A stretch of 29,741 nucleotides of DNA. Source: a virus. A program made the position numbers and the translations under genes. Below, piece by piece: positions 6,682-29,741 of this stretch. How positions within the stretch are numbered: position 1 is the stretch's first letter; each line of letters begins with the position of its first letter. The notes under the pieces were generated by a model that was not told the origin of the DNA, made no database searches, and worked only from the letters and a program-made list of their open reading frames with translations. Location of the stretch: positions 1-29,741 of the IMG/VR virus record IMGVR_UViG_3300046698_000529; one strand, 5' to 3'.

Positions 6682-6709
6682 TTGCTTCTACATCATCTTC
6701 ACTTATAAT
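6682..6709 (+). promoter_or_regulatory. Sigma70-like promoter for the helicase gene, leaderless spacing
   Basis: TTGCTT (6682-6687), 16 nt, TATAAT (6704-6709). The -10 box ends 7 nt before the ATG at 6717, so transcription should begin at or one base before the start codon. A C precedes the TTG, as in most of the other copies in this window. Confidence 0.7.
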
Positions 6710-6716
6710 AATCTTA

Positions 6717-8054
6717 ATGGTAAGTTCTACATTTCAACTCGATCATGATTATTTTGAACAAGTCATTCTCTATAAAGTTTTGACGGATGAAATGTACTTA
6801 GCTACTATTGTAGAGCATTTAGATCCTACTTACTTCAAAGATAAAAATAAACAATCAGTTATTACTCTCATTGCTGATTTCTATAAGAAGAGAGGAACTG
6901 TTCCAACTATTCCTGAATTAAAGTCTTATCTCACTACACCTGAACTTAAAAGTTCCTTTAAAGCTGTTGTAAGAGAATTTGAACAATTCAATAAAAAACT
7001 TAATGAAGATGAATTGTATGAAAATACTGAAAATTTTTTAAAAGAAAAAGCTGTTGCAGCAGCAATGTGGAAGATTATTGAAGAGAAGGAAAAAGGAAAG
7101 ATTGATTCTTCCCAAATTCTTCAGATGATGGAAAAAGCCTGTTCGTTGAGCTTACTTAAGGATCTCGGTTTCGATTATTTTAACAAAATTGATCAACACA
7201 TTGCTGATATTAACCGAGTAGACGCATATATTTCAACTGGATGGAAATGGTTAGATAAGAAATTAGGTGGAGGATTACTTCAAGATGGAAGAGCATTATA
7301 TGTTTTTGCAGGACAACCAAATATAGGTAAATCAATTTTCTTAGGTAACATTGCTGTAAATGTTGCAGAACAAGGTAAAACAGTTGTAGTAATTACCTTA
7401 GAAATGCCTGAACAAATATATGCAAGAAGAGTATCAGCAAAACTTTCAAAAATTCCTGTTCATAGTTTTCCAAAAGTGTCTTCTGATTTAAAAGATAAAC
7501 TTTATACATATAAAGTAAAACATCCCAATTCACGTCTTATTATAAAGGAATTTCCTCCTGCAACTATTACTCCTATTCAATTAAATACATATTTTAAAAA
7601 ACTAAAACAGATTGGTGTAATTCCAGATTTGATTGTGTTAGATTATTTGAATCTGCTTACTACTACGATTGGTAATAATTCATATGAAAAAATTAAACAT
7701 ATTTCTGAGCAGGTGAGAGCGTTAACCTATATTTATAAATGTCCGATTATTTCAGCCACCCAATTAAATCGCACTGGTGTTAATCAAACTGAACCCGGTA
7801 TTGAGACTACAAGTGAAAGTATGGGAACACCTGCAACAGCAGATGTAATGGTTAGTGTTTGGCAAGAAGATGAAGATTATGAATTAGGGATAATTAAGAT
7901 GAGTTTTGTAAAAAATCGATTTGGACCAAATTTTGGCACTTGTATAATGAGAATTGATTATCCTACATTATCTTTAACTGAAGAGGAACATAGTAACGAG
8001 ACTGATGAGATGATTTCTACGACCCAAATACTCAATAATTTAACATTATTATAA
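6717..8054 (+). CDS. 41: DnaB-family replicative helicase (T4 gp41-like)
   Basis: The hexameric 5'-3' helicase that unwinds the fork and works with the gp61-type primase. At 445 aa it is close to T4 gp41 (475). A helical N-terminal domain (residues 1-140, related to the DnaB collar) is followed by the RecA-like motor. Walker A is GQPNIGKS at about 199-206, TLEMPEQ is at about 227-233 (motif H1a), and Walker B DLIVLDYLNLL ends near D309. Downstream, ISATQLNRTG is the glutamine sensor loop (H3) and VKNRFGPNFG the arginine-finger region. It has its own sigma70-like promoter and no Shine-Dalgarno. Confidence 0.92.
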   Translation: MVSSTFQLDHDYFEQVILYKVLTDEMYLATIVEHLDPTYFKDKNKQSVITLIADFYKKRGTVPTIPELKSYLTTPELKSSFKAVVREFEQFNKKLNEDELYENTENFLKEKAVAAAMWKIIEEKEKGKIDSSQILQMMEKACSLSLLKDLGFDYFNKIDQHIADINRVDAYISTGWKWLDKKLGGGLLQDGRALYVFAGQPNIGKSIFLGNIAVNVAEQGKTVVVITLEMPEQIYARRVSAKLSKIPVHSFPKVSSDLKDKLYTYKVKHPNSRLIIKEFPPATITPIQLNTYFKKLKQIGVIPDLIVLDYLNLLTTTIGNNSYEKIKHISEQVRALTYIYKCPIISATQLNRTGVNQTEPGIETTSESMGTPATADVMVSVWQEDEDYELGIIKMSFVKNRFGPNFGTCIMRIDYPTLSLTEEEHSNETDEMISTTQILNNLTLL

Positions 8055-8057
8055 ATA
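8050..8057 (+). promoter_or_regulatory. T4-type late promoter box TATAAATA
   Basis: An exact TATAAATA, five nt (ACAAT) before the ATG at 8063. No TTG lies at the -35 distance. With T4 late spacing (the box at -13 to -6), +1 is the A of the start codon. The box overlaps the end of the helicase gene. Confidence 0.62.
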
Positions 8058-8062
8058 ACAAT

Positions 8063-8989
8063 ATGAAAACAGAAGGAAAGATGTTCGCCTGGATTGATGC
8101 GGATCTAGATGCAGCTGGTAGCCTATTAACGCTCACTTGGCTTTTAGGTAGTAAAGTACCATATAAAGTAACACCACAAAATACTTTCAGAGAAACATTC
8201 ATAGAATGGTCAAAATTAGAGGATGTTTCTACTTATGATAAAATCTTTATTCTCGACTTAGATGTTGGTAAACATTTAGATATTATAGATTTATCCAATG
8301 TAGTTGTAATTGATCACCACGAAACCCACCTGCCTTATAAAGATAATTATAAAAAAGCATTAGCAATTGTACAGGAATATTCTAGCACCTGCAAACTTCT
8401 ATATAAAACACTTAAGAAGCCAACAAAAGATGGTAAAACTTTAGATATATTAACTAATGAACAGAAATATTTTATTCTCTTAGTTGATGATTATGACAGT
8501 TTTCAATTTAAACTAAAGGAAACAAAATGTCTCAACACTTTATTTTGGAACTATCAAGGTGACCGTGTTCAAAAATTATGTGACCGATTTCCAAAAGGAT
8601 TTACTAGTTTTGATGAAACAGAGCAGAATATTTGTACATTCTATGAAAAGCGTTTTGCTCGAATAACAAGTGAATTACAGTTATTTACCGCAGAAATACC
8701 TATTAATGGAGTCAAATATAAATTTGTTGCAGTTTTTGCTACTGAATTTCTAAATGATATTGCTCAATATGCATTAGAAAGAACTAAAAATGACGTTGCA
8801 TTGGTAATAAACACAAAGACACAAAAGGTTAGCATTAGGAGATCTAAAACTAGTACTTTTGATTGTGCTAAGTTTGCAGAAAAAATGGGTGAGGGTGGAG
8901 GTCACCCTTTCGCGAGCGGAATGTTACTTTCAAATAAGGTATTATTGCTGTCAAAATTGTTCACTCCTTTCATAGAAAATCCCCTCTAG
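8063..8989 (+). CDS. DHH/DHHA1-family phosphoesterase (NrnA/RecJ-like)
   Basis: A 308-aa two-domain metal-dependent phosphoesterase. Metal-binding motifs are DADLDAAGS (residues 12-20), LDLDVG (64-69) and DHH at 84-86. A late VDDYDSF motif follows, and then the DHHA1 substrate-binding signature GGGHPFASG (278-286). This order fits small-substrate members such as NrnA, which degrade nanoRNA or 3'-phosphoadenosine phosphate; RecJ-like activity on ssDNA is also possible. In a phage it could recycle oligonucleotides from host nucleic acid. It lies 8 nt after the helicase gene and carries a late-type box, so its expression may extend into late infection. Confidence 0.85.
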   Translation: MKTEGKMFAWIDADLDAAGSLLTLTWLLGSKVPYKVTPQNTFRETFIEWSKLEDVSTYDKIFILDLDVGKHLDIIDLSNVVVIDHHETHLPYKDNYKKALAIVQEYSSTCKLLYKTLKKPTKDGKTLDILTNEQKYFILLVDDYDSFQFKLKETKCLNTLFWNYQGDRVQKLCDRFPKGFTSFDETEQNICTFYEKRFARITSELQLFTAEIPINGVKYKFVAVFATEFLNDIAQYALERTKNDVALVINTKTQKVSIRRSKTSTFDCAKFAEKMGEGGGHPFASGMLLSNKVLLLSKLFTPFIENPL

Positions 8990-8990
8990 G

Positions 8991-9018
8991 TTGATTTATC
9001 TTTTCCGGAAGGTAAATA
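8991..9018 (+). promoter_or_regulatory. Sigma70-like promoter, leaderless spacing
   Basis: TTGATT (8991-8996), 16 nt, TAAATA (9013-9018), then 5 nt to the ATG at 9024. The TTG has sometimes to be read as a possible start codon, but it fits the promoter better. A GGAAGG run at 9007-9012 lies too far from the ATG (11 nt) to be a convincing ribosome site. Confidence 0.55.
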
Positions 9019-9023
9019 ATCAC

Positions 9024-9317
9024 ATGACTGGGAAAAAACAAGCTTGTGATCCTACTTTTAACATTGTTGATAACGAACAAAAACATGCCTTTCTTAGTTT
9101 TTGTTCTTTTGTTTGTATAGCATATAATAAAAAACTTAACTTTGCAAATATTTTTATTCACATTCTCAAAGATGAAAGTTTACGTAAGTTATATATGAAG
9201 CTTTGCGGATTTGACTCTGAATTTGAAACAATTAAATCATTTCTTGAATATGGTTCTCCTCTTTATAAAAGTAAATATATCAAAAAATTCCTTAGTATGA
9301 ATAGAATAAGCTTGTGA
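9024..9317 (+). CDS. Hypothetical protein (97 aa)
   Basis: A mixed aromatic/basic protein with several Cys residues, mainly helical in look, and no recognisable motif. The start is set at ATG 9024 rather than TTG 8991 because the TTG is the -35 element of a promoter whose expected transcription start coincides with 9024. The stop codon (9315-9317) lies inside the -35 element of the next gene's promoter, showing how tightly the region is packed. Confidence 0.6.
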   Translation: MTGKKQACDPTFNIVDNEQKHAFLSFCSFVCIAYNKKLNFANIFIHILKDESLRKLYMKLCGFDSEFETIKSFLEYGSPLYKSKYIKKFLSMNRISL

Positions 9318-9340
9318 TTTAATTAAGCTTATTATATATT
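9312..9340 (+). promoter_or_regulatory. Sigma70-like promoter, leaderless spacing
   Basis: TTGTGA (9312-9317), 17 nt, TATATT (9335-9340), then 6 nt to the ATG at 9347. A C precedes the TTG. The -35 box overlaps the end of the upstream coding region. Confidence 0.6.
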
Positions 9341-9346
9341 TATTAC

Positions 9347-9583
9347 ATGAGCTTATTAACTGATTCAATTAAAAGTTATGGTGAAGGAGATACATCTACT
9401 AACAGAGCGTACTATAAAAATGCTGCCAAAATTTGTAGTCGTTTAATAACTTTAGAAGTACCATTAAATAGCAGACTTGCTATAGAATATGTTCGTCACC
9501 AAATTGAAGAAATTGTTAAAAAACAACAAGCATTTGATAAAGATAATACACCTAAAGAACAAAAACGTTTTGGGACAAGTTAG
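9347..9583 (+). CDS. Hypothetical protein (78 aa)
   Basis: A small helical protein with a basic, Gln/Lys-rich C-terminal third (residues 52-78). It has no recognised motif. It is the first gene of a unit running through the following 220-aa gene toward the ssDNA-binding protein. Its start codon sits at the predicted transcription start of its own promoter. Confidence 0.65.
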   Translation: MSLLTDSIKSYGEGDTSTNRAYYKNAAKICSRLITLEVPLNSRLAIEYVRHQIEEIVKKQQAFDKDNTPKEQKRFGTS

Positions 9584-9588
9584 ATTAA

Positions 9589-10304: not shown

Positions 10305-11177
10305 ATGAATACATTCAATAACGAAATGTTCGCATCTATCAAAGATGCCTTAACAAAAGAAAAATCCACATCAACTCTTAAGGATATACTCCGTACAGAG
10401 GTTGATCCTAAACCGTACATTGTACGCTTAATCCCTAACATTAAAGATCCAGATAAAACTTTCTTCCATTATTACAATCATGGTTGGGAAAGTTTTGCAA
10501 CCGGACAATTTGTGTCTGCTGTCAGTCCTACCACATGGAATGAACGTGATCCAATTGCAGAAACTCGGTTTAAGATTGCAAAGACTGGATCAGAAGAAGA
10601 AAAGGAAAAAGCAACTGCACTTAATCGAAAAGAAAATTGGCTTATTAATATTTTTGTTGTAAGTGATCCAAAACATCCTGAAAATAATAATAAGGTTAAA
10701 ATTCTTCGATTCGGTCGTCAATTACATAAAATTATCATGGAAGCAATTGAGGGTGATGATGCTAAAGAATTCGGAGAACGTATTTTCGATCTTACTGCTA
10801 CTGGCTGTAATTTAAGAATTAAAGCAGAAAAAAATGAAGGAAATTATGCTACTTATGTAAGTTCTAAATTTGTTTCACCTTCTGAAATTCCTGGATTAAC
10901 ATCAGAAAAGATTCAAGAAATTTATAATACTACATTTGATTTGACAAAAATCTTTACTATTAAAAGTTACGAAGAATTAAAAGATATGTTAGATCAACAT
11001 TACTATGCTTCTCCTAATACATCAACTAAGAAAGATAGTAAAAAAGAGCCTGTAAAAAAGGTAACAGATAAAGAAACAGCTACAGAAGATGATGTTCCAA
11101 TGGAAAAATCTCCTGTCCCTTCAGAAGAAGTCCTCGATGATAATAAAGTTGCAGAACTTCTTAAAGACTTAGAGTAA
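10305..11177 (+). CDS. 32: Single-stranded DNA-binding protein (T4 gp32-like)
   Basis: Coats ssDNA during replication and recombination. At 290 aa it is close to T4 gp32 (301). An N-terminal basic segment (residues 1-25) would give cooperativity. The core has YIVRLIPNIKDPDKTFF, the NHGW strand, RKENWLINIFVVSDP followed by PENNNKVKILRFG, and VSSKF, all matching the gp32 OB-fold order. The C terminus is a Lys/Glu linker ending in an acidic tail (DDNKVAELLKDLE), like the T4 partner-binding tail. The T4 zinc ligands are absent: the expected Cys cluster is replaced by SPTTWNERDP with no Cys. It is expected to interact with the UvsX, gp41, gp61 and RNase H homologues of this window. Confidence 0.9.
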   Translation: MNTFNNEMFASIKDALTKEKSTSTLKDILRTEVDPKPYIVRLIPNIKDPDKTFFHYYNHGWESFATGQFVSAVSPTTWNERDPIAETRFKIAKTGSEEEKEKATALNRKENWLINIFVVSDPKHPENNNKVKILRFGRQLHKIIMEAIEGDDAKEFGERIFDLTATGCNLRIKAEKNEGNYATYVSSKFVSPSEIPGLTSEKIQEIYNTTFDLTKIFTIKSYEELKDMLDQHYYASPNTSTKKDSKKEPVKKVTDKETATEDDVPMEKSPVPSEEVLDDNKVAELLKDLE

Positions 11178-12900: not shown

Positions 12901-13221
12901 ATGGCAAAAAATAACATTACAACAGCAGGGTATTTTATTAAACGACTTCGTGATAATGGATTTTATGTATGCCGTATTTTTGATGAGTATGGAATAGGTG
13001 ATCCTAGAAATTGGACTACATTAATTAATCCAGGTAGAGAATCAGTTTATATTACTTATTACACTAATAAGAATTCGTTTCAAGAAAGTTTATTTGAGTT
13101 TAATGATGGAGGATTAAGATTTCCGCGAAACTTTCAACTTAAAACTGAATCAATGGAAGTTATTATTAGTTATTTACTCCGGAAAGGAATAAGCAATGCA
13201 ACCAAAAAAACACAAACCTAA
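12901..13221 (+). CDS. Hypothetical protein (106 aa)
   Basis: A compact alpha/beta protein with a helix (GYFIKRLRDNGFYVCRIFDEY), the turn GDPRNW, a run of beta strands and a C-terminal helix. Conserved-looking but not recognised. It lies 4 nt after the clamp gene and overlaps the next gene by 26 nt; that gene's Shine-Dalgarno is inside this one. Confidence 0.65.
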   Translation: MAKNNITTAGYFIKRLRDNGFYVCRIFDEYGIGDPRNWTTLINPGRESVYITYYTNKNSFQESLFEFNDGGLRFPRNFQLKTESMEVIISYLLRKGISNATKKTQT

Positions 13222-13540: not shown

Positions 13541-13901
13541 AAAATGGTTTAAAACATATAAACCATTTAATAGGGAATCATATGCTGTATCTCATGGTAT
13601 ATATTGTGGTGAATTCCTTATCTTTATGGAAGAAGAAGGAGAATATTTTAATTTTTTATCTCTTCCAAATATGTTGATAAGAGAAGTACCGAAAGATGAT
13701 TTTAGAAAAGGATTAGAAAATGCAATAATTGAACGTGTTGAAATAATTCCAAGAGCATATTATAAATTTTTACAAAAACAATATTTTAAATCAAAAAAGA
13801 AATCTTTTACTTTGACACAGAAACTTAACTCAAATGAAAAATCTAATAATAGACTCAAACAATCTCCTATATCGAATTTGGCACATAAACAAGTCAGCTA
13901 A
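13524..13901 (+). CDS. Hypothetical protein (125 aa)
   Basis: An N-terminal basic strand/helix (MQLRIKKWFKTYKPF) is followed by a small beta core (IYCGEFLIFMEEEGEYFNFL), a helix with ERVEIIPRAYYKFLQKQY, and a Lys/Ser/Asn-rich tail. The frame can be extended upstream to 13467 but would then overlap the preceding gene by 74 nt. ATG 13524 gives a 17-nt overlap and a better N terminus. Its 3' end overlaps the exonuclease gene by 68 nt, so the tail is probably little constrained. Confidence 0.6.
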   Translation: MQLRIKKWFKTYKPFNRESYAVSHGIYCGEFLIFMEEEGEYFNFLSLPNMLIREVPKDDFRKGLENAIIERVEIIPRAYYKFLQKQYFKSKKKSFTLTQKLNSNEKSNNRLKQSPISNLAHKQVS

Positions 13902-14730
13902 TTCAGATCCTATATTGATGTTTTTACGGACATTGCGATGTTATGTGAGAGATTTTGAACCAGATAATATCTATTCAGTATGGGATAAGAAATTATTAAA
14001 GCCTTCAACAAATTTTCGTAAAGAAATGGTTAATGTTGAATATAAGGCAAATCGTGATTATTCAGAGCTAGAAGAAATACATGCTAAAGATGATTTAATT
14101 ATGAGTATGCTTCAAGCTCTAGGTATTAAAATTATGTTTCCAAGAGTTATGGAAGGTGATGATGTTATTGCATGGTTAACACACAATCTTCCTGGTGAAA
14201 AAACTATAGTAAGTGTTGATCATGATTTTTTTCAACTAGTTAATGAGCAAACTTCGGTTTTTAGTCCTATAAAAAAGGTTTTAGTTGAACAATTTAATTT
14301 AGCAGAACATACAAAAGTAAATCCTAATTGCTTTATTCTCTTTAAAGCAATTAAAGGAGATGTTTCTGATAATGTTCCTGGATTAGAAGGATTTGGTGCA
14401 GTCAAATCAAAGAAATTAGCTGAAGGTTGGGAAACTTTACAAAACAAACTAACAACAGAACAAAAAGAAATTGTAACACGTAATATTAAACTTGTAGATT
14501 TGTCGTATGGATATAAGGTTTATCCAGAAGAAATAGAATCTTACAAGGGACAATTAGAAGAACAACAAAACATCCAGTTAAATATGAAAGAATTCAAGAG
14601 AATTTGTACCGAAAATCACATTGATGATATTGTATATGATTTTCTCAACTGGATTCATCCCTTTAGACATGATAATCTTTTGCAAGATAGTATTGTATCT
14701 TTAGCAAAAAGACTAAATTTAACAGTGTGA
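13834..14730 (+). CDS. rnh: 5'-3' exonuclease / RNase H (T4 Rnh-like, FEN family)
   Basis: Removes RNA primers and adjacent DNA from lagging strands. At 298 aa it is almost the length of T4 RNase H (305). Metal-ligand motifs occur in FEN order: IDSNNLLYR (N terminus), VEYKANRDYSELEE, EGDDVIAW, SVDHDFFQLV and KGDVSDNVPGLEGFGAVKSKKL, the last being the helix-hairpin-helix DNA-binding region. The C-terminal helical part would contact gp32. The start lies inside the preceding gene, with no Shine-Dalgarno, so translation is probably coupled. Confidence 0.9.
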   Translation: MKNLIIDSNNLLYRIWHINKSANSDPILMFLRTLRCYVRDFEPDNIYSVWDKKLLKPSTNFRKEMVNVEYKANRDYSELEEIHAKDDLIMSMLQALGIKIMFPRVMEGDDVIAWLTHNLPGEKTIVSVDHDFFQLVNEQTSVFSPIKKVLVEQFNLAEHTKVNPNCFILFKAIKGDVSDNVPGLEGFGAVKSKKLAEGWETLQNKLTTEQKEIVTRNIKLVDLSYGYKVYPEEIESYKGQLEEQQNIQLNMKEFKRICTENHIDDIVYDFLNWIHPFRHDNLLQDSIVSLAKRLNLTV

Positions 14731-14946
14731 ACTACCTAAAAATCACTCTCTAGGCTTCAGCGTAAATACACTTCTTTTTAGACACTTCAATGCTTGTGCT
14801 TTCAGATAATTTCTTATCTGCTAGACTTATTTTAGCTCTGTGCCTGTTATCGTCTGGAACAGACGATTAGATATTAAATTAATATCATTATAATTATTTA
14901 ATTCTTAAGTATGATTATTTTTATAATTTTTTAACATGTTTCATAG
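14731..14946 (+). ncRNA. Noncoding stretch with several hairpins (candidate structured RNA)
   Basis: The longest gene-free interval in the window and visibly less AT-rich in its first two thirds. Three inverted repeats are present. CAGATAA (14803-14809) pairs with TTATCTG (14814-14820). ATCGTCTG (14849-14856) pairs with CAGACGAT (14860-14867) across a GAA loop. A 17-bp AT-rich palindrome lies at 14870-14886. CTGTT (14844-14848) could alternatively pair with AACAG (14858-14862), which would exclude the second hairpin. A 26-codon ORF (14790-14870, MLVLSDNF...) spans the first two hairpins. It may be a terminator/leader region, a small RNA or an operator; it does not look like a tRNA. Confidence 0.4.
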
Positions 14947-15162: not shown

Positions 15163-15190
15163 TTGTATTCATTTAATTTTGTATTATAAT
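15163..15190 (+). promoter_or_regulatory. Sigma70-like promoter for primase, leaderless spacing
   Basis: TTGTAT (15163-15168), 16 nt, consensus TATAAT (15185-15190), then 7 nt to the ATG at 15198. A C precedes the TTG. Confidence 0.72.
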
Positions 15191-15197
15191 ATCTTGA

Positions 15198-16253
15198 ATG
15201 GAAATACCACAAGATTATTTGATACAGAAATTTAAACAGATAGTATCTCATACTTCGTTTAATAAAATATCAAATGTGTATTTAGGAAGTTGTCCTGAAT
15301 GTAGAGATGGTAAATCAAAGAGGCGGCGTTTATATTATATTGTAAAAAATGATCGAGTTTTTTGCCATAATTGCCAAATTAACTTACCTATTATTACCTT
15401 TTTAATTCAGTATAGTCACCAAACATTCAAAGAGCTATTAGATGAAAGTAAAGAATATGACATACTGCCTTCCGATGTATCAAAAATTAATATTGTATCA
15501 CTAATAAAAAAAATTAGTCATACTCTTCCAGATGATTGTATTAATTTAACTGACAATGCTCAACTCAATTTTTATAAACATGATTTAGTTGTTCAAAAGG
15601 TATTAGAATATATTCATCTGCGAAGATTAGATACTGCATTATATCGACCTAAAACGTTTTGGTTAAGTTTGACTGATTTTATACATAAAAATCGATTAGT
15701 TATACCATTCTATGATGAGACAAATCAAATAGTGTTTTATCAGTCAAGAACTGTTATACCAGCTGAATGGAATGCTCCAAAATATCTATCAAAATCAAAT
15801 GGTGACCGGACATTATTTAATATAAACAAAATTGACTTAAGTTTGGATAAAATTTTTATAACAGAAGGTCCTATAAATGCATGTTTTCTTAAAAATTGTG
15901 TTGCGGTAGGTGGAATACAGGATGAATCAACATTTTCTCTAACACATATACAGGAAATGCAATTAAGTAAATATTTTGCGTATGAACGCATATGGTGCTT
16001 GGATTCTCAATGGATTGATGCGGCTAGTTATAGAAAAACACAGATTCTCATTGAGTTAGGATGTAACATGTTTATCTGGCCTGAAATCTATGGTAGACTC
16101 TTTAAAGACTTTAACGAAATGACAATAAAATTGAAGATTGATAGTATTCCACCTGATTTTATAATAAAAAACTCGTGTTCAGGAATGAGAGCACGAGTTT
16201 TGTTATCACAAATACCTAAACCTAAAAAGGTCTTACCCAATATAGCCACCTAA
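15198..16253 (+). CDS. 61: DNA primase (T4 gp61-like, DnaG/TOPRIM family)
   Basis: Makes RNA primers at the fork with the gp41-like helicase. The 351 aa compare with 342 in T4 gp61. The N-terminal zinc-binding domain has C32-x2-C35 (CPEC) and C56-x2-C59 (CHNC). The catalytic part has RLVIPFYDE, FYQSRT and YLSKSNG. The TOPRIM acidic motif is IFITEGPINACF (E223) and the WCLDSQWID strand has D269. It has its own promoter. The last 21 nt overlap, tail to tail, the end of the minus-strand gene at 16233, and a hairpin that reads as a terminator for the minus strand is embedded in its C-terminal coding part. Confidence 0.88.
   Translation: MEIPQDYLIQKFKQIVSHTSFNKISNVYLGSCPECRDGKSKRRRLYYIVKNDRVFCHNCQINLPIITFLIQYSHQTFKELLDESKEYDILPSDVSKINIVSLIKKISHTLPDDCINLTDNAQLNFYKHDLVVQKVLEYIHLRRLDTALYRPKTFWLSLTDFIHKNRLVIPFYDETNQIVFYQSRTVIPAEWNAPKYLSKSNGDRTLFNINKIDLSLDKIFITEGPINACFLKNCVAVGGIQDESTFSLTHIQEMQLSKYFAYERIWCLDSQWIDAASYRKTQILIELGCNMFIWPEIYGRLFKDFNEMTIKLKIDSIPPDFIIKNSCSGMRARVLLSQIPKPKKVLPNIAT
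16167..16202 (-). terminator. Intrinsic terminator for the minus-strand unit, inside the primase gene
   Basis: AAACTCGTG (16169-16177) pairs with CACGAGTTT (16192-16200); three inner pairs (one G-U) extend it to a 12-bp stem with an 8-nt loop. Read on the minus strand, the stem is followed by a run of six T, a standard intrinsic terminator 31 nt beyond the stop of the 16233-17138 gene. On the plus strand the T-run is shorter (TTTTG), so some bidirectional activity is possible. Confidence 0.72.
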
Positions 16254-17138
16254 CCACAATCGACGAAATCGATCATAACTTGGTTGACCATGATATGGTA
16301 AATTTACTGCTGTTATCGGAAATGTTAATGTTTGAGTTGTATTACTTACTGTTGCAGGTATACCTTCAATTAAACAAGTTGAAGACAACGTAATAACTAA
16401 AGTTGCTGCAAAATTACCTACAGCAGTTTCACCAACTTGGGCAGATAAACCTAATGTAAAACCAGTATTGGTAACTTTAAGAGGTAAAGATGCAAGATTT
16501 GTAGCATCGAGTGTCCAACATGCTCCTTCAGGCTCATATGGTGTTACATTATTAAATGTATAACCAGTAATAAAAGTTGTTACAGGTGAAGTAGTAGTAA
16601 AACCAATAGTAAGACCATCGTAAATTCCACTTGCGTTTGGTCCGAATGCAGACAATGATTTATTAATTGTTGAAACACCAGTATATGCTGATAATACAAC
16701 CGACGCTGTTGGACCATATGGTAAATCTACTGCTGTTAATGCAAATGACAATGTTTGAGATGTTGTTGTAACTGCCGATCTTGTCCATGCAGCACCAGTT
16801 AAACAAGTAGAACTTAAAGTAAAATCTAAAGTTGCTGCATAAGGACCTACTGAATATTCACCAACTTGAGCAGACAACCCTAATGTAAATCCTGTACTAG
16901 TAAATTGAAGAGGTAGAGATGCTAAACTTGATGCATCAAATGTCCAAATTGCTCCTTCTGGTGCATACGGCGTATTATTAGTAAAAGTATAGCCTGTTAT
17001 AAAAGCTGTTACTGGTGAAGCAAATGTAGTTACGATTGTAAGACCATCGTAAATTCCACTTGCATTTGGTCCGAATGCAGACAATTTATTGTTAATTGTT
17101 GAACTACCTGAATATGCAGATAATGTAATGAGTGCCAT
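16233..17138 (-). CDS. Beta-rich protein of two tandem 143-aa domains, probable virion or decoration protein
   Basis: The 301 aa consist of two copies of one domain with a 143-residue period. AFGPNASGIYDGLTI occurs at residues 21-35 and 164-178, and GFTLGLSAQVGE occurs in both. A short unrelated basic tail (residues 283-301) follows. The composition (Thr/Ser/Ala/Gly, almost no Lys or Glu) suits an extracellular beta-sandwich exposed on a virion, comparable in style to Hoc- or fibre-type decoration proteins, although no family match is claimed. The copies are near-identical at DNA level in places, so the duplication is recent. A late-type box (AATAAATA) lies 5 nt before the ATG. Confidence 0.75.
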   Translation of the reverse strand: MALITLSAYSGSSTINNKLSAFGPNASGIYDGLTIVTTFASPVTAFITGYTFTNNTPYAPEGAIWTFDASSLASLPLQFTSTGFTLGLSAQVGEYSVGPYAATLDFTLSSTCLTGAAWTRSAVTTTSQTLSFALTAVDLPYGPTASVVLSAYTGVSTINKSLSAFGPNASGIYDGLTIGFTTTSPVTTFITGYTFNNVTPYEPEGACWTLDATNLASLPLKVTNTGFTLGLSAQVGETAVGNFAATLVITLSSTCLIEGIPATVSNTTQTLTFPITAVNLPYHGQPSYDRFRRLWLGGYIG

Positions 17139-17143
17139 ATGAT

Positions 17144-17151
17144 TATTTATT
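17144..17151 (-). promoter_or_regulatory. Late-type promoter box AATAAATA (one mismatch)
   Basis: On the minus strand AATAAATA is followed by five nt (ATCAT) and the ATG at 17138. The spacing is identical to that of the exact TATAAATA boxes. Confidence 0.5.
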
Positions 17152-17167: not shown

Positions 17168-17587
17168 TTATATACTTGTGTCAGCAGACATTAAATGTCC
17201 TTTTAAAGATTCTGCTAATCCGCTCAAATCTTGTGCAATACGAGAAATTTTCTTTGTTTCACTTCGTGCAATAGGTGAAAATACTGTATCACATTCTGCT
17301 GAATTAAGACGGCTTTGAATTGAATCACTATCTAATCCATTTAGCTTATCAACAAACTGTTCAACTTCAATAATCCATTGTTGCAACTGTTTCAATTGTT
17401 CAGTTGTTTGCTTAATCTTGTAATTCATTTCAGGATTAGGCGGAGTATCAAAAGTTCGAGGATTCGTTCCTGGTTCAAGTGTTTTCTGAAAAGCTTGTAC
17501 ATCTGTAATAGGTTCAGCAGATGTTTCTTCTATTTTTCTTGCCTCTGATACCAAGATATCTGTAAATTTACGTTCAAAAGTCACCAT
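17168..17587 (-). CDS. Hypothetical late helical protein (139 aa)
   Basis: A helical protein with a Gln/Leu/Ile heptad-like stretch (KIKQTTEQLKQLQQWIIEVE, about residues 56-75) and a second C-terminal helix pair, joined by a Pro-rich segment. It has no signal peptide or catalytic motif. The perfect late box 5 nt before its ATG suggests a virion or assembly role. It is first in a two-gene minus-strand unit that ends at the terminator near 16167. Confidence 0.65.
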   Translation of the reverse strand: MVTFERKFTDILVSEARKIEETSAEPITDVQAFQKTLEPGTNPRTFDTPPNPEMNYKIKQTTEQLKQLQQWIIEVEQFVDKLNGLDSDSIQSRLNSAECDTVFSPIARSETKKISRIAQDLSGLAESLKGHLMSADTSI

Positions 17588-17592
17588 GTAAT

Positions 17593-17600
17593 TATTTATA
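17593..17600 (-). promoter_or_regulatory. T4-type late promoter box TATAAATA
   Basis: On the minus strand TATAAATA is followed by five nt (ATTAC) and the ATG at 17587. It lies in a 38-nt divergent gap before the plus-strand gene at 17626. Confidence 0.65.
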
Positions 17601-17625: not shown

Positions 17626-18006
17626 ATGAGCATTACATTTGATGATTTAATTAAAGAAGATACAGCTAGTGGAGGTGGAGGCGTACTTCGACCTCATCCA
17701 ATTACTCTATTAGACTTAGCTGGAATAGCAAGTAAGATACAACAAACAGATGGAACTGCACCTAAAACATTACCTTACCCAGGACAGTTTTTACTTGAAG
17801 AAATAGCAGATGTTTATATTGCTGCTGGAAAAGTACATGCACGTTTATTAGAGCTTGAAAAAAATGCTTTAGTTGCAAATAGTGTAACAGCAAAAAAGAA
17901 AATCCAAAGAGTTATTTGTTCACTCTACTCCATTAAAAAGCTTTGTAAAATTATGGGTACTCAACTTGATAGTCTTTCTATTGATAAACAAAAAGTTGGT
18001 TCATAA
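17626..18006 (+). CDS. Hypothetical helical protein (126 aa)
   Basis: A Gly-rich N-terminal segment (SGGGGVL) is followed by helices (FLLEEIADVYIAAGKVHARLL and KIQRVICSLYSIKKLCKIM). It is the first gene of a plus-strand cassette between two minus-strand late blocks. No clear promoter is seen in the short divergent gap. Function not recognised. Confidence 0.62.
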   Translation: MSITFDDLIKEDTASGGGGVLRPHPITLLDLAGIASKIQQTDGTAPKTLPYPGQFLLEEIADVYIAAGKVHARLLELEKNALVANSVTAKKKIQRVICSLYSIKKLCKIMGTQLDSLSIDKQKVGS

Positions 18007-18009
18007 AAT
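17981..18009 (+). promoter_or_regulatory. Sigma70-like promoter, leaderless spacing
   Basis: TTGATA (17981-17986), 17 nt, TAAAAT (18004-18009), then 5 nt (ACTAT) to the ATG at 18015. It lies within the end of the upstream gene. Confidence 0.45.
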
Positions 18010-18014
18010 ACTAT

Positions 18015-18461
18015 ATGGTACGTATTTTAATTTCATTACTAATAACATTATTTGTTAGTGTTGCTTTTGGTCTTAGTGCATACTTCTTTAAAATAACATT
18101 TTGGGGAACTACTATTTTTACATTTTTTCTACAAATTTTATTTTTTTATTGTTGGAATAGCTGGCAACAAACGAAATTACTTTTAAAAGCAGAGCTAATT
18201 GAAAATGAAAGAATAATTGAATTAGGAAAACAAGGAGCTGTTATTACGTGTGCATTTTGTAAGCATCCAAATTTTACACTTTTACGCTTTGATATTAATA
18301 ACGAATTAAAATGTGAAAAATGTAATAAGATTAGTTCAATTTACATTAATATTGAAGCAGTACAGCAAACAATACCTATTGCAAATATTCAAGCAGCACA
18401 ATTATCACAAGAACAAATGGATAAATTAGCAGATGATATAATAATTGAAAATAAACTATAA
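18015..18461 (+). CDS. Membrane protein with cytosolic zinc ribbon (148 aa)
   Basis: Two hydrophobic segments (about residues 4-24 and 30-47) make a membrane hairpin. A charged linker helix follows, then a zinc ribbon with CAFC at 79-82 and CEKC at 100-103, and a Gln-rich acidic tail. With both ends probably cytosolic, it could anchor a nucleic-acid- or protein-binding ribbon at the inner membrane. No named family is recognised. Its stop overlaps the next start (ATAATG region). Confidence 0.65.
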   Translation: MVRILISLLITLFVSVAFGLSAYFFKITFWGTTIFTFFLQILFFYCWNSWQQTKLLLKAELIENERIIELGKQGAVITCAFCKHPNFTLLRFDINNELKCEKCNKISSIYINIEAVQQTIPIANIQAAQLSQEQMDKLADDIIIENKL

Positions 18462-18943: not shown

Positions 18944-18975
18944 TTGTAATTTATTAATTTATCCCTTATTATACA
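18944..18975 (+). promoter_or_regulatory. Sigma70-like promoter (short leader)
   Basis: TTGTAA (18944-18949), 17 nt, TATTAT (18967-18972), with TATACA overlapping at 18970-18975. The ATG is at 18984, 8 to 11 nt after the box. It shares the CTTG start of the other copies but allows a leader of a few nt. Confidence 0.5.
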
Positions 18976-18983
18976 TTTGTTAT

Positions 18984-19295
18984 ATGAAAGATGTAAAAGA
19001 AAAGGCTAAAAAGCTGTTTGTAAGAATTAACACACCCACTGATGATATTTTTCAAATGTCTGTATTTGAATATTCACGTTGGTTAACACTAATGGATGCA
19101 GTAGTTATTATTGATCGGGGTGCAAACCGATTAAAAATTGATTTAGATTCATCTCAAGTTGATTGGATTCAACCTATTGCAATTGAAAAGTATATTAGGA
19201 ATCGATACGAAGATATTCTAAATGATTTAATGCAAGATTCAGAGTTTTTAAAGGAGACAACATGTATTTCATTACCGGAAGTAAATTTACAGTAG
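18984..19295 (+). CDS. Hypothetical protein (103 aa)
   Basis: An alpha/beta protein beginning with a basic helix (MKDVKEKAKKLF), then a segment with WLTLMDAVVIIDRG and a C-terminal acidic helix (EDILNDLMQDSEFL). No motif recognised. The last 34 nt overlap the next gene, whose Shine-Dalgarno lies inside this one. Confidence 0.6.
   Translation: MKDVKEKAKKLFVRINTPTDDIFQMSVFEYSRWLTLMDAVVIIDRGANRLKIDLDSSQVDWIQPIAIEKYIRNRYEDILNDLMQDSEFLKETTCISLPEVNLQ
19251..19256 (+). promoter_or_regulatory. Strong Shine-Dalgarno AAGGAG for the 19262 gene
   Basis: AAGGAG with a 5-nt spacer to ATG 19262. It is one of the very few strong ribosome sites in the window, and it serves an internal cistron. Confidence 0.7.
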
Positions 19296-20378: not shown

Positions 20379-21809
20379 TTATTTTTCTTTTGTTAAGCAC
20401 CATCCACCTAAACTAGAATTCCAATGTAGTTTTATTCCTGTTTTACCTAGAAGACGTGATTGATCTTTTCCTGCGTTTCGAATATCATACTTTTGAGAAA
20501 TATATCCTAAATCTTGTGGAGTAAGAACTCTTGTTGCATCTCCTTCTTTTCTGCCTCTTAAATCTTCTACTTTTTCATTATCTGAAGGATCTATCTTATG
20601 CATAGTAGGAACAAGATTTTGATGTAATCTTGTTTGCCCAGTAAATCCACGTTGTTGACGTGTACCTCTTTTCTTTTTAAAGAAGTCTTTAAAGCTTATT
20701 ATTCCTTGAGAGGCTATTTCATTTAATATATTTTCAAATGCTTCAGTTATATTTTTCTTCTTCATTTTTTGATTTTTATAAAATTGTGTTAATTTATTAA
20801 TTTCAGCTTGTTTTAATTTTGGATTGCTATGACAGAAAAAACTTTTTCCTACCTTTGAAGGTGCTCCTTGAAGTGACGTGAGCTGATTGTAAGAACAGAA
20901 AAAACCTCCTCCTACCTCCGAAGGTGCTCCTTGAAGTGATGTGAGCTGATTGTCAGAACAGTAAAAATCACCTCTTACCTTCGAGGGTGCTCCTTGAAGT
21001 GACGTGAGCTGATTGTTAAAACAGTTAAAAACTCCTCTTACCTCCGAAGGTGCTCCTTGAAGTGACGTGAGCTGATTGCTAGAACAATCAAAATATCCTT
21101 CTACTTTTCCAAACTTAAATGGAAGCTCCTTCAGCTTCATTTCAGATAGATTTACATCTCCATCTATATCTACACTTCCATCAGGATTAATAGTGTGCTT
21201 GTGCTGTAATAGCCATTTATCCCAATCCATTTCATTTGTGAAAATAATATTTTTCGGAATGTTATACTGCTTTAACAGTGCAGTGAATTTTTGCACTGAA
21301 ATTATTTCATCTAATTCATTATATACTTCTTTAGAAGAATTATTCTGATAAACGGCCACAGCTAATTTATGTGTATTATTCTTCGGTAATATGAAGTAGA
21401 ATTTTGTACCCTTCTCTGTATAACTCTTCCAGTGCTCAATAACATTTCCGCTTATGCACCATTTCGTCCCTGCTCCGTATTTCTTCGATGCTTCAAAAGT
21501 GTTAGGGCAGACAATCGTGCAAAATTCATTCTCAAATACTCTTTCAACATCTCCTTCTGTACGTTTAATAGCAGACTTCTGTTCGTGTTTTTTGCTTTTA
21601 CTATCAACAAAAGCTTTAAATTCGTTGAAAGGCTTCTTAATCCATGGAGAAATATCTGCTTCTGATCCTTTTAGAAAGTTACGTTGTTTTAATATCTTGA
21701 ATGTGTCGATGTATTGTTCAATAGTATCAGTGTTTGCTTCTTCTTTCCAGTGAGTGAAAGCATCATCAAAGACAGATTCAAGAAGATAAAAATTTTTAAA
21801 GGTGTACAT
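20379..21809 (-). CDS. Three-part protein with four 21-aa leucine-rich repeats (476 aa)
   Basis: N-terminal part (residues 1-235) contains FCTIVCPNTFEA and KYGAGTKWCISGN, a Cys/Trp motif I have seen associated with phage LRR proteins but cannot assign. Residues 239-327 hold four near-identical repeats of 21 aa with the core NQLTSLQGAPSxV, encoded by 63-bp DNA repeats. The C-terminal part (345-476) is basic, with RKEGDATRVLTPQDLGY and HWNSSLGGWCLTKEK. The repeats suggest a binding surface that can vary by recombination. The gene sits between the tail spike and neck-like genes, so it is probably late, either virion-bound or directed at a host protein. Confidence 0.75.
   Translation of the reverse strand: MYTFKNFYLLESVFDDAFTHWKEEANTDTIEQYIDTFKILKQRNFLKGSEADISPWIKKPFNEFKAFVDSKSKKHEQKSAIKRTEGDVERVFENEFCTIVCPNTFEASKKYGAGTKWCISGNVIEHWKSYTEKGTKFYFILPKNNTHKLAVAVYQNNSSKEVYNELDEIISVQKFTALLKQYNIPKNIIFTNEMDWDKWLLQHKHTINPDGSVDIDGDVNLSEMKLKELPFKFGKVEGYFDCSSNQLTSLQGAPSEVRGVFNCFNNQLTSLQGAPSKVRGDFYCSDNQLTSLQGAPSEVGGGFFCSYNQLTSLQGAPSKVGKSFFCHSNPKLKQAEINKLTQFYKNQKMKKKNITEAFENILNEIASQGIISFKDFFKKKRGTRQQRGFTGQTRLHQNLVPTMHKIDPSDNEKVEDLRGRKEGDATRVLTPQDLGYISQKYDIRNAGKDQSRLLGKTGIKLHWNSSLGGWCLTKEK
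20866..21117 (-). repeat. Tandem 63-bp coding repeats (LRR array)
   Basis: The motif complementary to AGTGACGTGAGCTGATTG recurs every 63 bp (the CTGATTG core begins at 20883, 20946, 21009 and 21072). It encodes four 21-residue leucine-rich repeats. The high DNA identity between units points to recent expansion and potential copy-number change. Confidence 0.88.
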
Positions 21810-25664: not shown

Positions 25665-25672
25665 TATTTATA
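25665..25672 (-). promoter_or_regulatory. T4-type late promoter box TATAAATA (short leader)
   Basis: On the minus strand an exact TATAAATA lies 10 nt before the ATG at 25654. The predicted leader would be about 5 nt, slightly longer than at the other late boxes. Confidence 0.55.
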
Positions 25673-25692
25673 CAAAAAATAAAGTAAAGCAC

Positions 25693-25720
25693 TTGAATTC
25701 TGGTAAAAAACTGTTAATAT
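25693..25720 (+). promoter_or_regulatory. Sigma70-like promoter, leaderless spacing
   Basis: TTGAAT (25693-25698), 16 nt, TAATAT (25715-25720), then 6 nt to ATG 25727. A C precedes the TTG. It lies back to back with the minus-strand late promoter in a 72-nt divergent gap. Confidence 0.62.
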
Positions 25721-25726
25721 GTAATA

Positions 25727-25918
25727 ATGATTAGTGTTAAACCAGATAAGAATGTAGTTGTTCCAAAATATGACCTTCTTTCAGAAGGCTGTGATCCAAC
25801 AATGTGTAATACGAGTTATAAGCCAACTACTACTTCTACCATGTTACTAATTTTTGTTGCTATATTTGCAGGAATTTCAATTGTAATACGAATAATGTAT
25901 TGGTGGATTGGAAAATAA
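25727..25918 (+). CDS. Small single-pass membrane protein (63 aa)
   Basis: A polar N-terminal half with two Cys residues (GCDPTMCNTS) is followed by a hydrophobic helix at about residues 38-58 (MLLIFVAIFAGISIVIRIMY) and a short basic end. The shape is that of a small phage inner-membrane protein. Holin-like or exclusion roles are possible but unsupported. It heads the plus-strand glycosyltransferase cluster. Confidence 0.65.
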   Translation: MISVKPDKNVVVPKYDLLSEGCDPTMCNTSYKPTTTSTMLLIFVAIFAGISIVIRIMYWWIGK

Positions 25919-25921
25919 AAT

Positions 25922-26716: not shown

Positions 26717-26718
26717 AC

Positions 26719-26746
26719 TTGCATTTAACTTACTTCTAGTTAATAT
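26719..26746 (+). promoter_or_regulatory. Sigma70-like promoter, leaderless spacing
   Basis: TTGCAT (26719-26724), 16 nt, TAATAT (26741-26746). ATGs follow after 1 nt (26748) and 7 nt (26754). Only the second fits the expected transcription start, so it is taken as the start codon. Confidence 0.6.
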
Positions 26747-26753
26747 TATGTAT

Positions 26754-27518
26754 ATGTCACAAATTGCTTTGTTGGTTCCAACTCGTAATAGGCTAAATTT
26801 ACAACTTACATTAATTAGCTCAATTATTACAACTGTAAAAGACATTAATAATGTAACACTCTATTTTGGTGTTGATAGAGATGATCCAACACGAGAGATA
26901 ATCTATAAAATAGCTAATGCTATCCCGTTCGTTAAAATTATTGATATTGAACCTAAAGGTAAACAAACGAACATCCATGAAATTTGGAACAAACTTGCAA
27001 ATATTTCAACTGAAACTATAGTGAGTATGGTAGGTGATGATTTTATTTTTAAGACTCAAAATTGGGATGAAAAGATACTTGAGGAGTTTAATGAGCAAAA
27101 CTTACCATCTGATAAAATTAAATCTGTTTATTGTTGGGATGGTCAACGTGGTGGTGATCTCGCTGTGAATATTTTTACTCACCGTGAGTATTTAAAGTAT
27201 AATGATGGAAAATTTTTGTCTGAAACCTATTTGCTTAATTGGAGCGATCAAGATATTGATGTAATATTTAGGGCATTAGGAAGATTAAAATATAGAGGAG
27301 ATATAGAAATATTTCATAACCATTATGTATTTGGTGGGAGAAAGATGGATGAAACAGCTATAAGAATGTTAGAGCGAGATGGAGATAAATCTCAAACTGA
27401 TTTAAAATGGGGTCCAGCTGAACCAGAGCGAGTTGAACGAGTTTTAAAAATTGCAAAAGCTATTGGAGTAACACCTAATTTTAAAGAGGGTAAATTCTCT
27501 GAAAAATATTGGAACTAA
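26754..27518 (+). CDS. Glycosyltransferase-like protein (254 aa)
   Basis: Starts SQIALLVPTRNRLNLQLTLI, a GT-A N terminus. The strand VTLYFGVDRDDP and the motif TIVSMVGDDFIF (GDD near residue 95) are the nucleotide-sugar and metal sites. LNWSDQDIDVIFRALG near residue 165 is in the region of the acceptor base. The start at ATG 26754 instead of 26748 follows from the promoter. It lies between another glycosyltransferase and a sugar-nucleotide enzyme, which supports a role in glycan synthesis. Confidence 0.72.
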   Translation: MSQIALLVPTRNRLNLQLTLISSIITTVKDINNVTLYFGVDRDDPTREIIYKIANAIPFVKIIDIEPKGKQTNIHEIWNKLANISTETIVSMVGDDFIFKTQNWDEKILEEFNEQNLPSDKIKSVYCWDGQRGGDLAVNIFTHREYLKYNDGKFLSETYLLNWSDQDIDVIFRALGRLKYRGDIEIFHNHYVFGGRKMDETAIRMLERDGDKSQTDLKWGPAEPERVERVLKIAKAIGVTPNFKEGKFSEKYWN

Positions 27519-27536
27519 TAACTACATTTGTAAATA
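27509..27536 (+). promoter_or_regulatory. Sigma70-like promoter, leaderless spacing
   Basis: TTGGAA (27509-27514), 16 nt, TAAATA (27531-27536), then 5 nt to the ATG at 27542. The -35 lies at the end of the preceding gene. Confidence 0.5.
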
Positions 27537-27541
27537 AAAAT

Positions 27542-28501
27542 ATGAGTAAAAAATTGTTAATAACAGGAGGATCTGGATTCCTTGGAAAACAACTTGCATT
27601 AGCATTAAAAAATGATTATGAAGTGTGTATTACAGGTAGAAATAATAAACGTTTACAAGAGGCACAAAAATTAACAGAGTGTGAATGTAGACCAATGGAT
27701 GTTTCTTCAATTGAATCAATTAGAGATGTATTTAATGATGTTAAACCACATATTATAATCCACGCTGCTGCTACAAAATTTGTTCCTCTTGCAGAAATAT
27801 ATCCAATGGAATGCGTAGATATTAATATACATGGTAGTCAGAATGTTGCACGAGTTGCAATAGATCAATCTATTCCAATTGTTATTGGTATTTCAACAGA
27901 TAAAGCATCTCCACCTGTTCAAAGTATGTATGGTCTTTCAAAAGCAGTGATGGAACGATTATTTTGTAATATTGACGGTAAAACGGAAACATATTTTACT
28001 TGTGTTAGATACGGTAATGTTGCATGGTCGACTGGTTCAGTTTTACCTATATGGAAAGAACGAAGTTTAAAACAAGAATCATTAAATGTAACAGAACCAA
28101 ATATGTACAGATTTTTCTTTACTGTTAATGAAGCGGTAGAATTAGTATTAACTGCTTTAAATAATATTTTAGACGTACATGGAAAAATATTAACACAAGA
28201 AATGAAAGCAGCATCATTATTACGTATTCTTACTACATGGCAAAAAAATAAAGGATGCCACTATAATGTAACAGGTAGTAGACCTGGTGAAAGAATAGTA
28301 GAATATCTTATTGGTAATACAGAGATAGATAATACAGAAAAAATTATGTTTCAAAACAATATTATACCACATTATCTTATACATCCCAATCAAAAAGTAA
28401 AACAGCCATTATTGAATATTATTTCTTCCGAAAATACAACTCAATTGACAGATGGGGAAATTTTAAATCTTATTAATCACAAATCACAAAATTTTAGCTA
28501 A
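27542..28501 (+). CDS. NDP-sugar dehydratase/epimerase of the PseB/CapD type (319 aa)
   Basis: A short-chain dehydrogenase-fold enzyme acting on nucleotide sugars. The NAD(P)-binding loop GGSGFLGKQ is at residues 8-16, and IIIHAAATKFVPL follows. GISTDKASPPVQSMYGLSK has the TDKA and Y-x3-K arrangement typical of UDP-GlcNAc 4,6-dehydratases/epimerases (PseB, CapD, polysaccharide biosynthesis family) rather than GalE. VRYGNVAWSTGSVLP is the matching substrate loop. At 319 aa it has a single soluble domain without the membrane part of long CapD. It would supply a modified sugar to the flanking transferases. Start at 27542 is set by the promoter; the upstream in-frame TTG at 27509 is its -35 element. 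Confidence 0.8.
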   Translation: MSKKLLITGGSGFLGKQLALALKNDYEVCITGRNNKRLQEAQKLTECECRPMDVSSIESIRDVFNDVKPHIIIHAAATKFVPLAEIYPMECVDINIHGSQNVARVAIDQSIPIVIGISTDKASPPVQSMYGLSKAVMERLFCNIDGKTETYFTCVRYGNVAWSTGSVLPIWKERSLKQESLNVTEPNMYRFFFTVNEAVELVLTALNNILDVHGKILTQEMKAASLLRILTTWQKNKGCHYNVTGSRPGERIVEYLIGNTEIDNTEKIMFQNNIIPHYLIHPNQKVKQPLLNIISSENTTQLTDGEILNLINHKSQNFS

Positions 28502-28504
28502 AAT

Positions 28505-29101
28505 ATGGAACCAATACTTACAATATCAGTTTGTTCATTATATAGAAGAGAAGCATTTCTTAAGAGACTAAAAAATTGTCTTGCTCCTCAATTGCCAAAA
28601 GATAACTCAGTTGAAGTATTATGTAGTATTGATAATGGTGAATCTCATATTTCTATTAAACGTAATACATTATTACATGCAGCAAAAGGTAGATGGGTTT
28701 GCAGTATAGATGATGATGATTTAGTACACCCTGAATATATTAGTAAAATTCTTGATGCACTTAAACAGGATCCTGATACTGTTGGATTTTCTCTTATTAT
28801 GACAGTTGACGATAAAAATCCAGAAAGATCATACCATTCAATTAAATATAAAACTTGGTTTGATAAACCTAATGAAAAGAATCCAACAAAAAATGATTAT
28901 TTTAGAAATCCAAATCATTTGAATCCTGTTAGACGGGAAATTGCACAACAGATTGGATTTAAAAATAATACTCTCACTGGTGATGATTACAGTGATAGAT
29001 ATTACTCTGCAGGAATACTTCCAATGTTAAAAACAGAAGTGTATATTGATGAACCCCCAATGTACTATTATTTAGTTAGATCTGAAAAATACGCAATTTA
29101 A
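28505..29101 (+). CDS. Family 2-type glycosyltransferase (198 aa)
   Basis: Starts LTISVCSLYRREAFLKRLKN, a GT-A N terminus. VCSIDDDDLVHPEY (DDDD near residues 74-77) is the donor/metal motif, and the late LTGDDYSDRYY (near residue 160) is in the position of the catalytic acid pair. It is shorter than usual, so a minimal domain. It follows the PseB-like gene by 3 nt and closes the cluster. Confidence 0.75.
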   Translation: MEPILTISVCSLYRREAFLKRLKNCLAPQLPKDNSVEVLCSIDNGESHISIKRNTLLHAAKGRWVCSIDDDDLVHPEYISKILDALKQDPDTVGFSLIMTVDDKNPERSYHSIKYKTWFDKPNEKNPTKNDYFRNPNHLNPVRREIAQQIGFKNNTLTGDDYSDRYYSAGILPMLKTEVYIDEPPMYYYLVRSEKYAI

Positions 29102-29111
29102 TAAAATCAGC

Positions 29112-29139
29112 TTGATTTCATTCAAATAACTACTATAAT
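29112..29139 (+). promoter_or_regulatory. Sigma70-like promoter, leaderless spacing
   Basis: TTGATT (29112-29117), 16 nt, consensus TATAAT (29134-29139), then 5 nt to the ATG at 29145. A C precedes the TTG. Confidence 0.7.
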
Positions 29140-29144
29140 ATAGT

Positions 29145-29741
29145 ATGTATAATTTGAAAGACATATCAGAACAAATCTTGTTAGAAACGTTGAAAGACAT
29201 ATCAGAACAAATCTTGTTAGAAACGAGATTAGGTATGACTCCTATTAGACAAACTACTCAAAAGGTAGTTGAGGTTCTAAAAGAATATAACATACCTTGT
29301 GAATTAATTGGTGGGTATGCAGTTCACTTATATGGATTTTCTCGGTTTACAGATGATACAGATTTTATTGTGAGTCAAAGAGAACAAGCAAAAGAGATAT
29401 TAACCGGAAATGGATTTAAAGCAATTCCTGGTAATAACATGACAGTTGTTGATAAACAAACAGGTGTAAGTGTTGATTTGCTTGAACAAGGTAAAAAGGA
29501 TTCTAAAAATTCTCTTCCTTATCCTAATATAGAAAATCATGTTAATATTTTAGGTATTCCAACAATTAACCTTTTTGAATTGATTGAATTGAAATTAGGT
29601 ACATATTTAGCAGCAGGAATCAAAAGATTACAAGATAAGACTGATGTAACTAAACTAATAATAATACAAAAATTACCAGGAAATTTTCTTGATCAAAGTA
29701 AATATCCTAATGTTATTGTTGAATATAAACAAATCTGGAAA
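29145..29741 (+). CDS. Nucleotidyltransferase-like protein (3' partial)
   Basis: An open frame of 199 codons runs to the window end. The motif CELIGGYAVHLYGFSRFTDD followed by TDFIV is the GG...DTD signature of minimal nucleotidyltransferases, of the kind found in AbiEii/MNT-type proteins and small aminoglycoside-transferase relatives. A third Asp candidate is in GVSVDLLE. The substrate cannot be inferred. In antiphage or TA-type pairs such enzymes AMPylate or nucleotidylate a target. The N terminus contains an exact duplication (LKDISEQILLET twice, residues 4-27). The gene has a consensus promoter of its own. Confidence 0.75.
   Translation, partial: MYNLKDISEQILLETLKDISEQILLETRLGMTPIRQTTQKVVEVLKEYNIPCELIGGYAVHLYGFSRFTDDTDFIVSQREQAKEILTGNGFKAIPGNNMTVVDKQTGVSVDLLEQGKKDSKNSLPYPNIENHVNILGIPTINLFELIELKLGTYLAAGIKRLQDKTDVTKLIIIQKLPGNFLDQSKYPNVIVEYKQIWK
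29154..29225 (+). repeat. Exact 36-bp tandem duplication at the start of the nucleotidyltransferase gene
   Basis: Two identical 36-bp units (29154-29189 and 29190-29225) are in frame and encode LKDISEQILLET twice. No base differs between the copies, which points to a very recent duplication or an assembly artefact. Confidence 0.92.

Follow-up and report, generated by a model that had tools for sequence, protein, structure and literature searches.

The window analyzed here, a 29.7 kb virus record (IMGVR_UViG_3300046698_000529; G+C 30.7%), represents part of the genome of an uncultivated T4-superfamily phage, with promoter boxes lying directly against the start codons of several genes. It carries T4-type replication genes encoding UvsX (979-2091), a gp41-like helicase (6717-8054, plus strand; PHROG_19, E=7e-77), gp32 (10305-11177), and a gp61-like primase (15198-16253, plus strand; PHROG_47), together with an exonuclease gene (13834-14730), and its relatives encode gp43, gp23, and gp55. 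UvsX and gp41 share only ~27-37% identity with the closest cultured phages. Among uncultured contigs, gp41 has many matches, with up to 54-55% identity across most of the protein length, and gp32 matches reach 60%. The largest matching contigs are 195-211 kb long, and near-complete relatives span 196-211 kb. In a midpoint-rooted gp41 tree, in which some branches are long, a 100/100 branch splits the window and its relatives, hereafter the clade, from T4, P-HM1, HTVC008M, Melnitz, and AG-345-P14.

A first-pass annotation had reported nine plus-strand sigma70-like promoters ending 5-7 nt before an ATG, with a spacer of 16 nt in seven cases and 17 nt in two. All nine pairs of boxes are present and both spacer lengths occur, but the split is six to three, and the sigma70 description holds for seven of the nine. 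We scored these sites with a -35/-10 matrix trained on 147 abutting promoters of relatives, the window being excluded from training; d denotes the number of nucleotides between the end of the promoter box and the ATG. Six sites are strong. The best one precedes ATG 29145 (29112-29147; -35 TTGATT at 29112-29117, N16, -10 TATAAT at 29134-29139, N5) and, at 13.9 bits, exceeds all 1027 control ATGs. It is followed by the sites of ATG 18015 (17981-18017; TTGATA 17981-17986, N17, TAAAAT 18004-18009, N5; 11.6 bits), of the helicase start at 6717 (6682-6719; TTGCTT 6682-6687, N16, TATAAT 6704-6709, N7; 11.4 bits), and of the primase start at 15198 (15163-15200; TTGTAT 15163-15168, N16, TATAAT 15185-15190, N7; 10.3 bits). 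The remaining strong sites serve ATG 9347 (9312-9349; TTGTGA 9312-9317, N17, TATATT 9335-9340, N6; 8.3 bits) and ATG 25727 (25693-25729; TTGAAT 25693-25698, N16, TAATAT 25715-25720, N6; 8.2 bits), and support is medium at ATG 26754 (26719-26756; TTGCAT 26719-26724, N17, AATATT 26742-26747, N6; 5.8 bits). A tenth promoter, placed by the annotation 8-11 nt before ATG 18984, is also found (18944-18986, plus strand; TTGTAA 18944-18949); its better -10 box, TATTAT at 18967-18972, lies at d=11 (8.7 bits), so that this transcript would probably carry a short leader rather than none. The annotation had missed a probable sigma70-like promoter before ATG 14936 (14898-14938, plus strand; -10 TATAAT at 14922-14927, N8; 9.0 bits) and possibly a further abutting site at start 775.

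Scanning the plus strand for the strict pattern TTG-N19/20-TANNNT-N5-7-ATG returned 10 matches, compared with a mean of 3.06 and a maximum of 9 in 200 dinucleotide shuffles. Seven of the 10 coincide with gene starts (6717, 9347, 15198, 18015, 25727, 26754, and 29145), so that the enrichment at gene starts predicted by the annotation is borne out. Window scans with plain TANNNT-N5-7-ATG or TATAAT-N4-9-ATG gave no enrichment on their own, which indicates that the -35 box and the gene-start position are both needed. With the relative-trained matrix, 8 of 42 window gene starts score at least 8 bits, against 0.49 expected from the 1027 other ATGs; at a cut-off of at least 6 bits, window starts differ from the other ATGs with a Fisher P of 1.3e-4.

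The two remaining sites of the original nine belong to a different promoter class. In T4, the late box TATAAATA is read by the gp55 sigma factor. ATG 9024 and ATG 27542 score weakly as sigma70 sites (4.6 and only 1.5 bits, respectively) but are preceded by exact TAAATA-N5-ATG arrangements on the plus strand (9013-9026, box 9013-9018, and 27531-27544, box 27531-27536), and we therefore group them with three late-type sites that the annotation lacked. These are TATAAATA before ATG 8063 of a DHH-family gene (8050-8065, plus strand; TAAATA 8052-8057, N5), AATAAATA before the gene at 16233-17138 (17136-17151, minus strand; TAAATA 17144-17149, N5), and TATAAATA before the gene at 17168-17587 (17585-17600, minus strand; TAAATA 17593-17598, N5). 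The proposed start corrections to 9024 (instead of TTG 8991), 26754, and 27542 (instead of TTG 27509) are reasonable, if not proven. Every clade member has its TAAATA maximum at d=5 or 6 (for example, 19/90 in G006). A gp55 homologue is encoded in 9 of 11 records; the two lacking it are the window, itself a fragment, and a partial contig of 76 kb. Both promoter classes thus abut the start codon. The late box also precedes some sheath, tube, and portal genes at varied distance, and its assignment to late genes is incomplete.

The same geometry of sigma70-type boxes is found throughout the clade. In the 196 kb relative G004, TATAAT with at most one mismatch lies exactly at d=5 in 44 of 253 genes, compared with ~4 per position further upstream (~10-fold), and TTGACA-like hexamers peak exactly at d=28, corresponding to a 17-nt spacer; across near-complete relatives, the TTGACA-like -35 box sits 16-17 nt upstream of the -10 box. 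Joint scoring of both boxes, which relied on the E. coli consensus and took expected counts from other ATGs, yielded 39 starts at d=5 in G004 (1.5 expected) and, at d=6, 25 in G001 (1.3 expected) and 12 in G006 (0.7 expected), with G002, G003, G005, and G007 likewise peaking at d=6. A count of ATGs downstream of promoter-like sites, made without gene calls, has sharp maxima at d=5 in G004 (46) and at d=6 in G001 (26), G002, G003, and G006; its matrix was trained on such sites, whereas the E. coli-consensus test was not. After removal of duplicates, the gp41 locus set (374 starts) peaks at d=6-7 (26 and 18) and the gp32 locus set (524 starts) at d=6 (43). Individual genes behave similarly: gp43 has an abutting promoter scoring at least 9 bits in 5 of 7 genomes, an abutting promoter recurs in many further gp43 relatives, and uvsX and gp61 orthologues have abutting promoters in several relatives. 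Because gp43 orthologues are conserved from residue 1, translation very likely does begin at their ATG. In a more distant gp43 group, most members have Shine-Dalgarno (SD) sequences and promoters located 22-34 nt upstream. A few (L249, L251, L256, L260, and L264) nevertheless place a -10 box at 6-7 nt from the ATG, so that abutting promoters may have evolved repeatedly.

The comparison phages, which include T4 and phages of Pelagibacter, Methylophilales, cyanobacteria, and Rhodothermus, differ in this respect. No abutting-promoter peak was found in T4, HTVC008M, Melnitz, P-HM1, AG-345-P14, or RM378, and no gene-call-free ATG spike in T4, HTVC008M, Melnitz, P-HM1, or RM378. Their promoters sit further upstream, with T4 late boxes located 27-28 nt before the ATG.

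The clade also makes almost no use of SD sequences. In most members, 4-8% of starts have an SD-like tetramer (1% in G009, 16-17% in G006), a rate at or near that of control positions; the corresponding figures are 49-55% for T4, 45-52% for HTVC008M, 54% for Melnitz, and 22% for P-HM1. Abutting transcription units of the clade combine a -10 box at 5-7 nt and a matching -35 box with the lack of an SD, as expected for leaderless units. The annotation had proposed a second, SD-dependent mode inside operons, which the data do not support: internal cistrons have SD-like tetramers in 8% of cases, hardly above background, and the SDs named at 13196 and 19262 are at chance level (2/41 starts, as in a control stretch, 2/41), although 19262, with AAGGAG and a gene overlapping its neighbor, may be a single real SD. 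Predicted RNA structure is weaker around starts than in mid-gene regions (-2.5 vs. -4.2 kcal/mol). A marked exception is gp23, which in G002, G003, and several relatives has a consensus AGGAGG inside a conserved leader; SD-like tetramers occur in 36 of 65 distinct gp23 leaders. In part of the clade these leaders (L144:14979, L160:15776, and L280-L359) combine an SD of the CCATAGGAGG type with an inverted repeat, and almost no other gene has an SD. Three relatives encode the ribosomal protein bS21 (L142:7052-7213, L150:14233-14376, and L155:1101-1226).

Base preferences next to the ATG point to the probable transcription start (+1). Where the late box has d=5, the ATG is preceded by a pyrimidine in 91% of cases in one set and 95% in a second, separate set (background 60% and 54%, respectively), while d=6 sites have A there in 53% and 70%. 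Counted from the late box, the purine keeps to the sixth base and so moves with the box, not with the ATG. At sigma70-type sites, a pyrimidine precedes the ATG in 81-97% of cases at d=5 and 64-76% at d=6; the preference is absent or unclear at d=7. Since the pyrimidine/purine step tracks the distance from the late box, these data support a +1 on the A of the ATG or one base before it.

We propose that promoter-proximal genes of this phage clade, presumed early and late alike, are transcribed without leaders from promoters set directly against the start codon, a reading based on sequence features to which we assign a probability of roughly 0.86. In early and replication genes, a sigma70-type TTGAnn-N16/17-TATAAT promoter ending 5-7 nt before the ATG would place the first nucleotide of the RNA on the A of the AUG or the adjoining base. 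In late genes, the T4-type box TATAAATA would do the same at 5-6 nt. As the genome is essentially devoid of SD sequences, ribosomes would have to start on the 5'-terminal AUG of promoter-proximal mRNAs, and downstream cistrons, which also lack SDs, would probably be reached by read-through and coupling, aided by A/T-rich, weakly structured starts. The annotation's view of leaderless promoter-proximal transcripts agrees with a geometry that recurs across the clade and is absent from cultured T4-like phages; its restriction to early genes proved too narrow, as the late-type class abuts starts as well. Several observations weigh against our proposal. A strong sigma70-type abutting box is found in only ~20% of promoter-proximal starts and a late-type box in 17%; related small genes arranged in arrays contribute part of the signal in G004 and G001; sigma70-type sites at d=6-7 show a weak initiator preference or none; and within the window, 27542 and 18984 are weak sites.

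Some transcripts might instead begin with a very short leader, of 1-4 nt or, where d=10-13, as many as 6-7 nt, that is translated independently of an SD. Late d=6 sites prefer A at -1 and would then yield RNAs beginning with AAUG, which fits this idea, as does the spacing of d=10-13 at some gp43 promoters, where short leaders in some relatives also count against uniformly leaderless transcription. The modal spacings of 5 and 6 with a pyrimidine at -1 nevertheless point to the A of the ATG as +1, and we consider a short leader as the general explanation unlikely. The abutting promoters could also be real but secondary, with the main transcripts being leadered products of upstream promoters and leaderless translation a minor route; genes do form co-directional runs, and several window promoters lie in short intergenic gaps. 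We find this quite unlikely, given that the tandem, partly repeated small early-type genes of G004 and G001 each have an abutting promoter of their own and that there is no SD to serve a leadered transcript. The least probable alternative, which we regard as very doubtful, is that the A/T-rich stretch before the ATG is a Kozak-like translation signal, as in Bacteroidota, and resembles a -10 box through base composition. The genome is A/T-rich and internal starts are likewise A/T-rich with T at -1, and Bacteroidota, which lack SDs, favor A at -3, -6, and -11 to -15 (PMC7366714). Such a signal would not account for a paired TTGACA-like box with a fixed 16-17 nt spacer, for peaks at one exact distance, or for the enrichment of sigma70-type abutting boxes at promoter-proximal starts (20%, vs. 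5% at internal ones), and T4 and HTVC008M, which are as A/T-rich as the clade, show nothing comparable.

Leaderless transcription from abutting promoters may have a wider meaning. At rather less than even odds, we suggest that a large aquatic T4-superfamily lineage has abandoned leaders and SDs, with host-sigma early and phage-sigma late RNAs beginning at the AUG as the default for promoter-proximal genes, while part of the lineage keeps a gp23 leader with a consensus SD; this would provide two routes of ribosome recruitment, the strong one being reserved for the capsid. The arrangement ties promoter position to the mode of translation, suggests that T4-type regulation, in its early and late promoter classes alike, can be reorganized to work with leaderless mRNA, and offers a sequence-only rule for locating gene and transcription starts in widespread uncultured phages that are otherwise called blindly.

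Further features of these genomes lie outside this scheme. The middle of a 476-residue protein (window 20379-21809, minus strand) resembles pieces found in very large phages, namely uncultured ones of 735 kb and Lak phages, and in Vibrio phages. By eye, the N-terminus encoded at 3152-3913 looks like a candidate QueC-type queuosine gene, and 4234-5175 like a candidate GMP reductase or IMP dehydrogenase gene. The 196 kb relative contains 28 tRNA genes in ~8.5 kb (L165, G004:20001-40000).

The promoters provide a clue to the host, which would be a bacterium that uses sigma70-type promoters and accepts mRNAs lacking both a leader and an SD. An alignment search of GTDB genomes with UvsX returned one irrelevant Omnitrophota match, and comparison of the phage bS21 with PDB ribosomes indicated no host phylum. 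Far-T4-like phages have been predicted to infect Bacteroidetes (PMC7198788) or, in a separate study, mainly Flavobacteriales (PMC13037479). Leaderless mRNAs make up only 5.5% in F. psychrophilum (PMC9723704) and short leaders ~3.7% in B. thetaiotaomicron (PMC7366714), and the trained -10 matrix reads TATAAT (97 of the 147 sites have A at position 5) rather than the Bacteroidota sigma-A -7 box TAnnTTTG. Given the low fractions in these two species and a promoter box of another type, the hosts either lie outside Bacteroidota or are infected by a phage that does not follow their pattern.

Leaderless phage transcripts are known from lambda cI, transcribed from PRM, and from Thermus phage P23-45. 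To our knowledge, such cases involve single genes or a different phage family; for a T4-superfamily clade in which both promoter classes do this, we know of no report. Searches of the openly licensed literature found no leaderless T4-like phages and no T4-superfamily clade that lacks SDs and sets both classes against the start codon. Leaderless mRNA and ORF-adjacent -10 boxes are already known (PMC12340547), but a whole phage lineage built in this way appears undescribed in that literature. T4 itself shares the elements, namely early sigma70 and late gp55-dependent TATAAATA promoters, as well as the gene repertoire, including a gp55 homologue in the clade; it differs in having late boxes 27-28 nt before the ATG and SDs in half of its genes, compared with 5-6 nt and no SD in the clade. 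The Far-T4 phages (PMC4360716) are, like the clade, uncultivated aquatic members of the T4 superfamily. The gp23 proteins of the relatives are closer to those of cyanophages and pelagiphages than to that of RM378, the only Far-T4 isolate and the sole Far-T4 reference compared. RM378 was rejected as a close relative, since the relatives' capsid and polymerase match cyanophages and pelagiphages better and RM378 lacks abutting promoters. The closest parallel in promoter placement comes from Deinococcus-Thermus, where a TANNNT box lies ~6-7 bp before the ORF and transcripts are assumed or shown to be leaderless, involving about one-third of D. radiodurans genes (PMC12340547). Those organisms, however, are bacteria that also use SDs on other genes, whereas the clade is a phage lineage without SD usage in which the -35 box is clear and late-type promoters form a second class with equal spacing.

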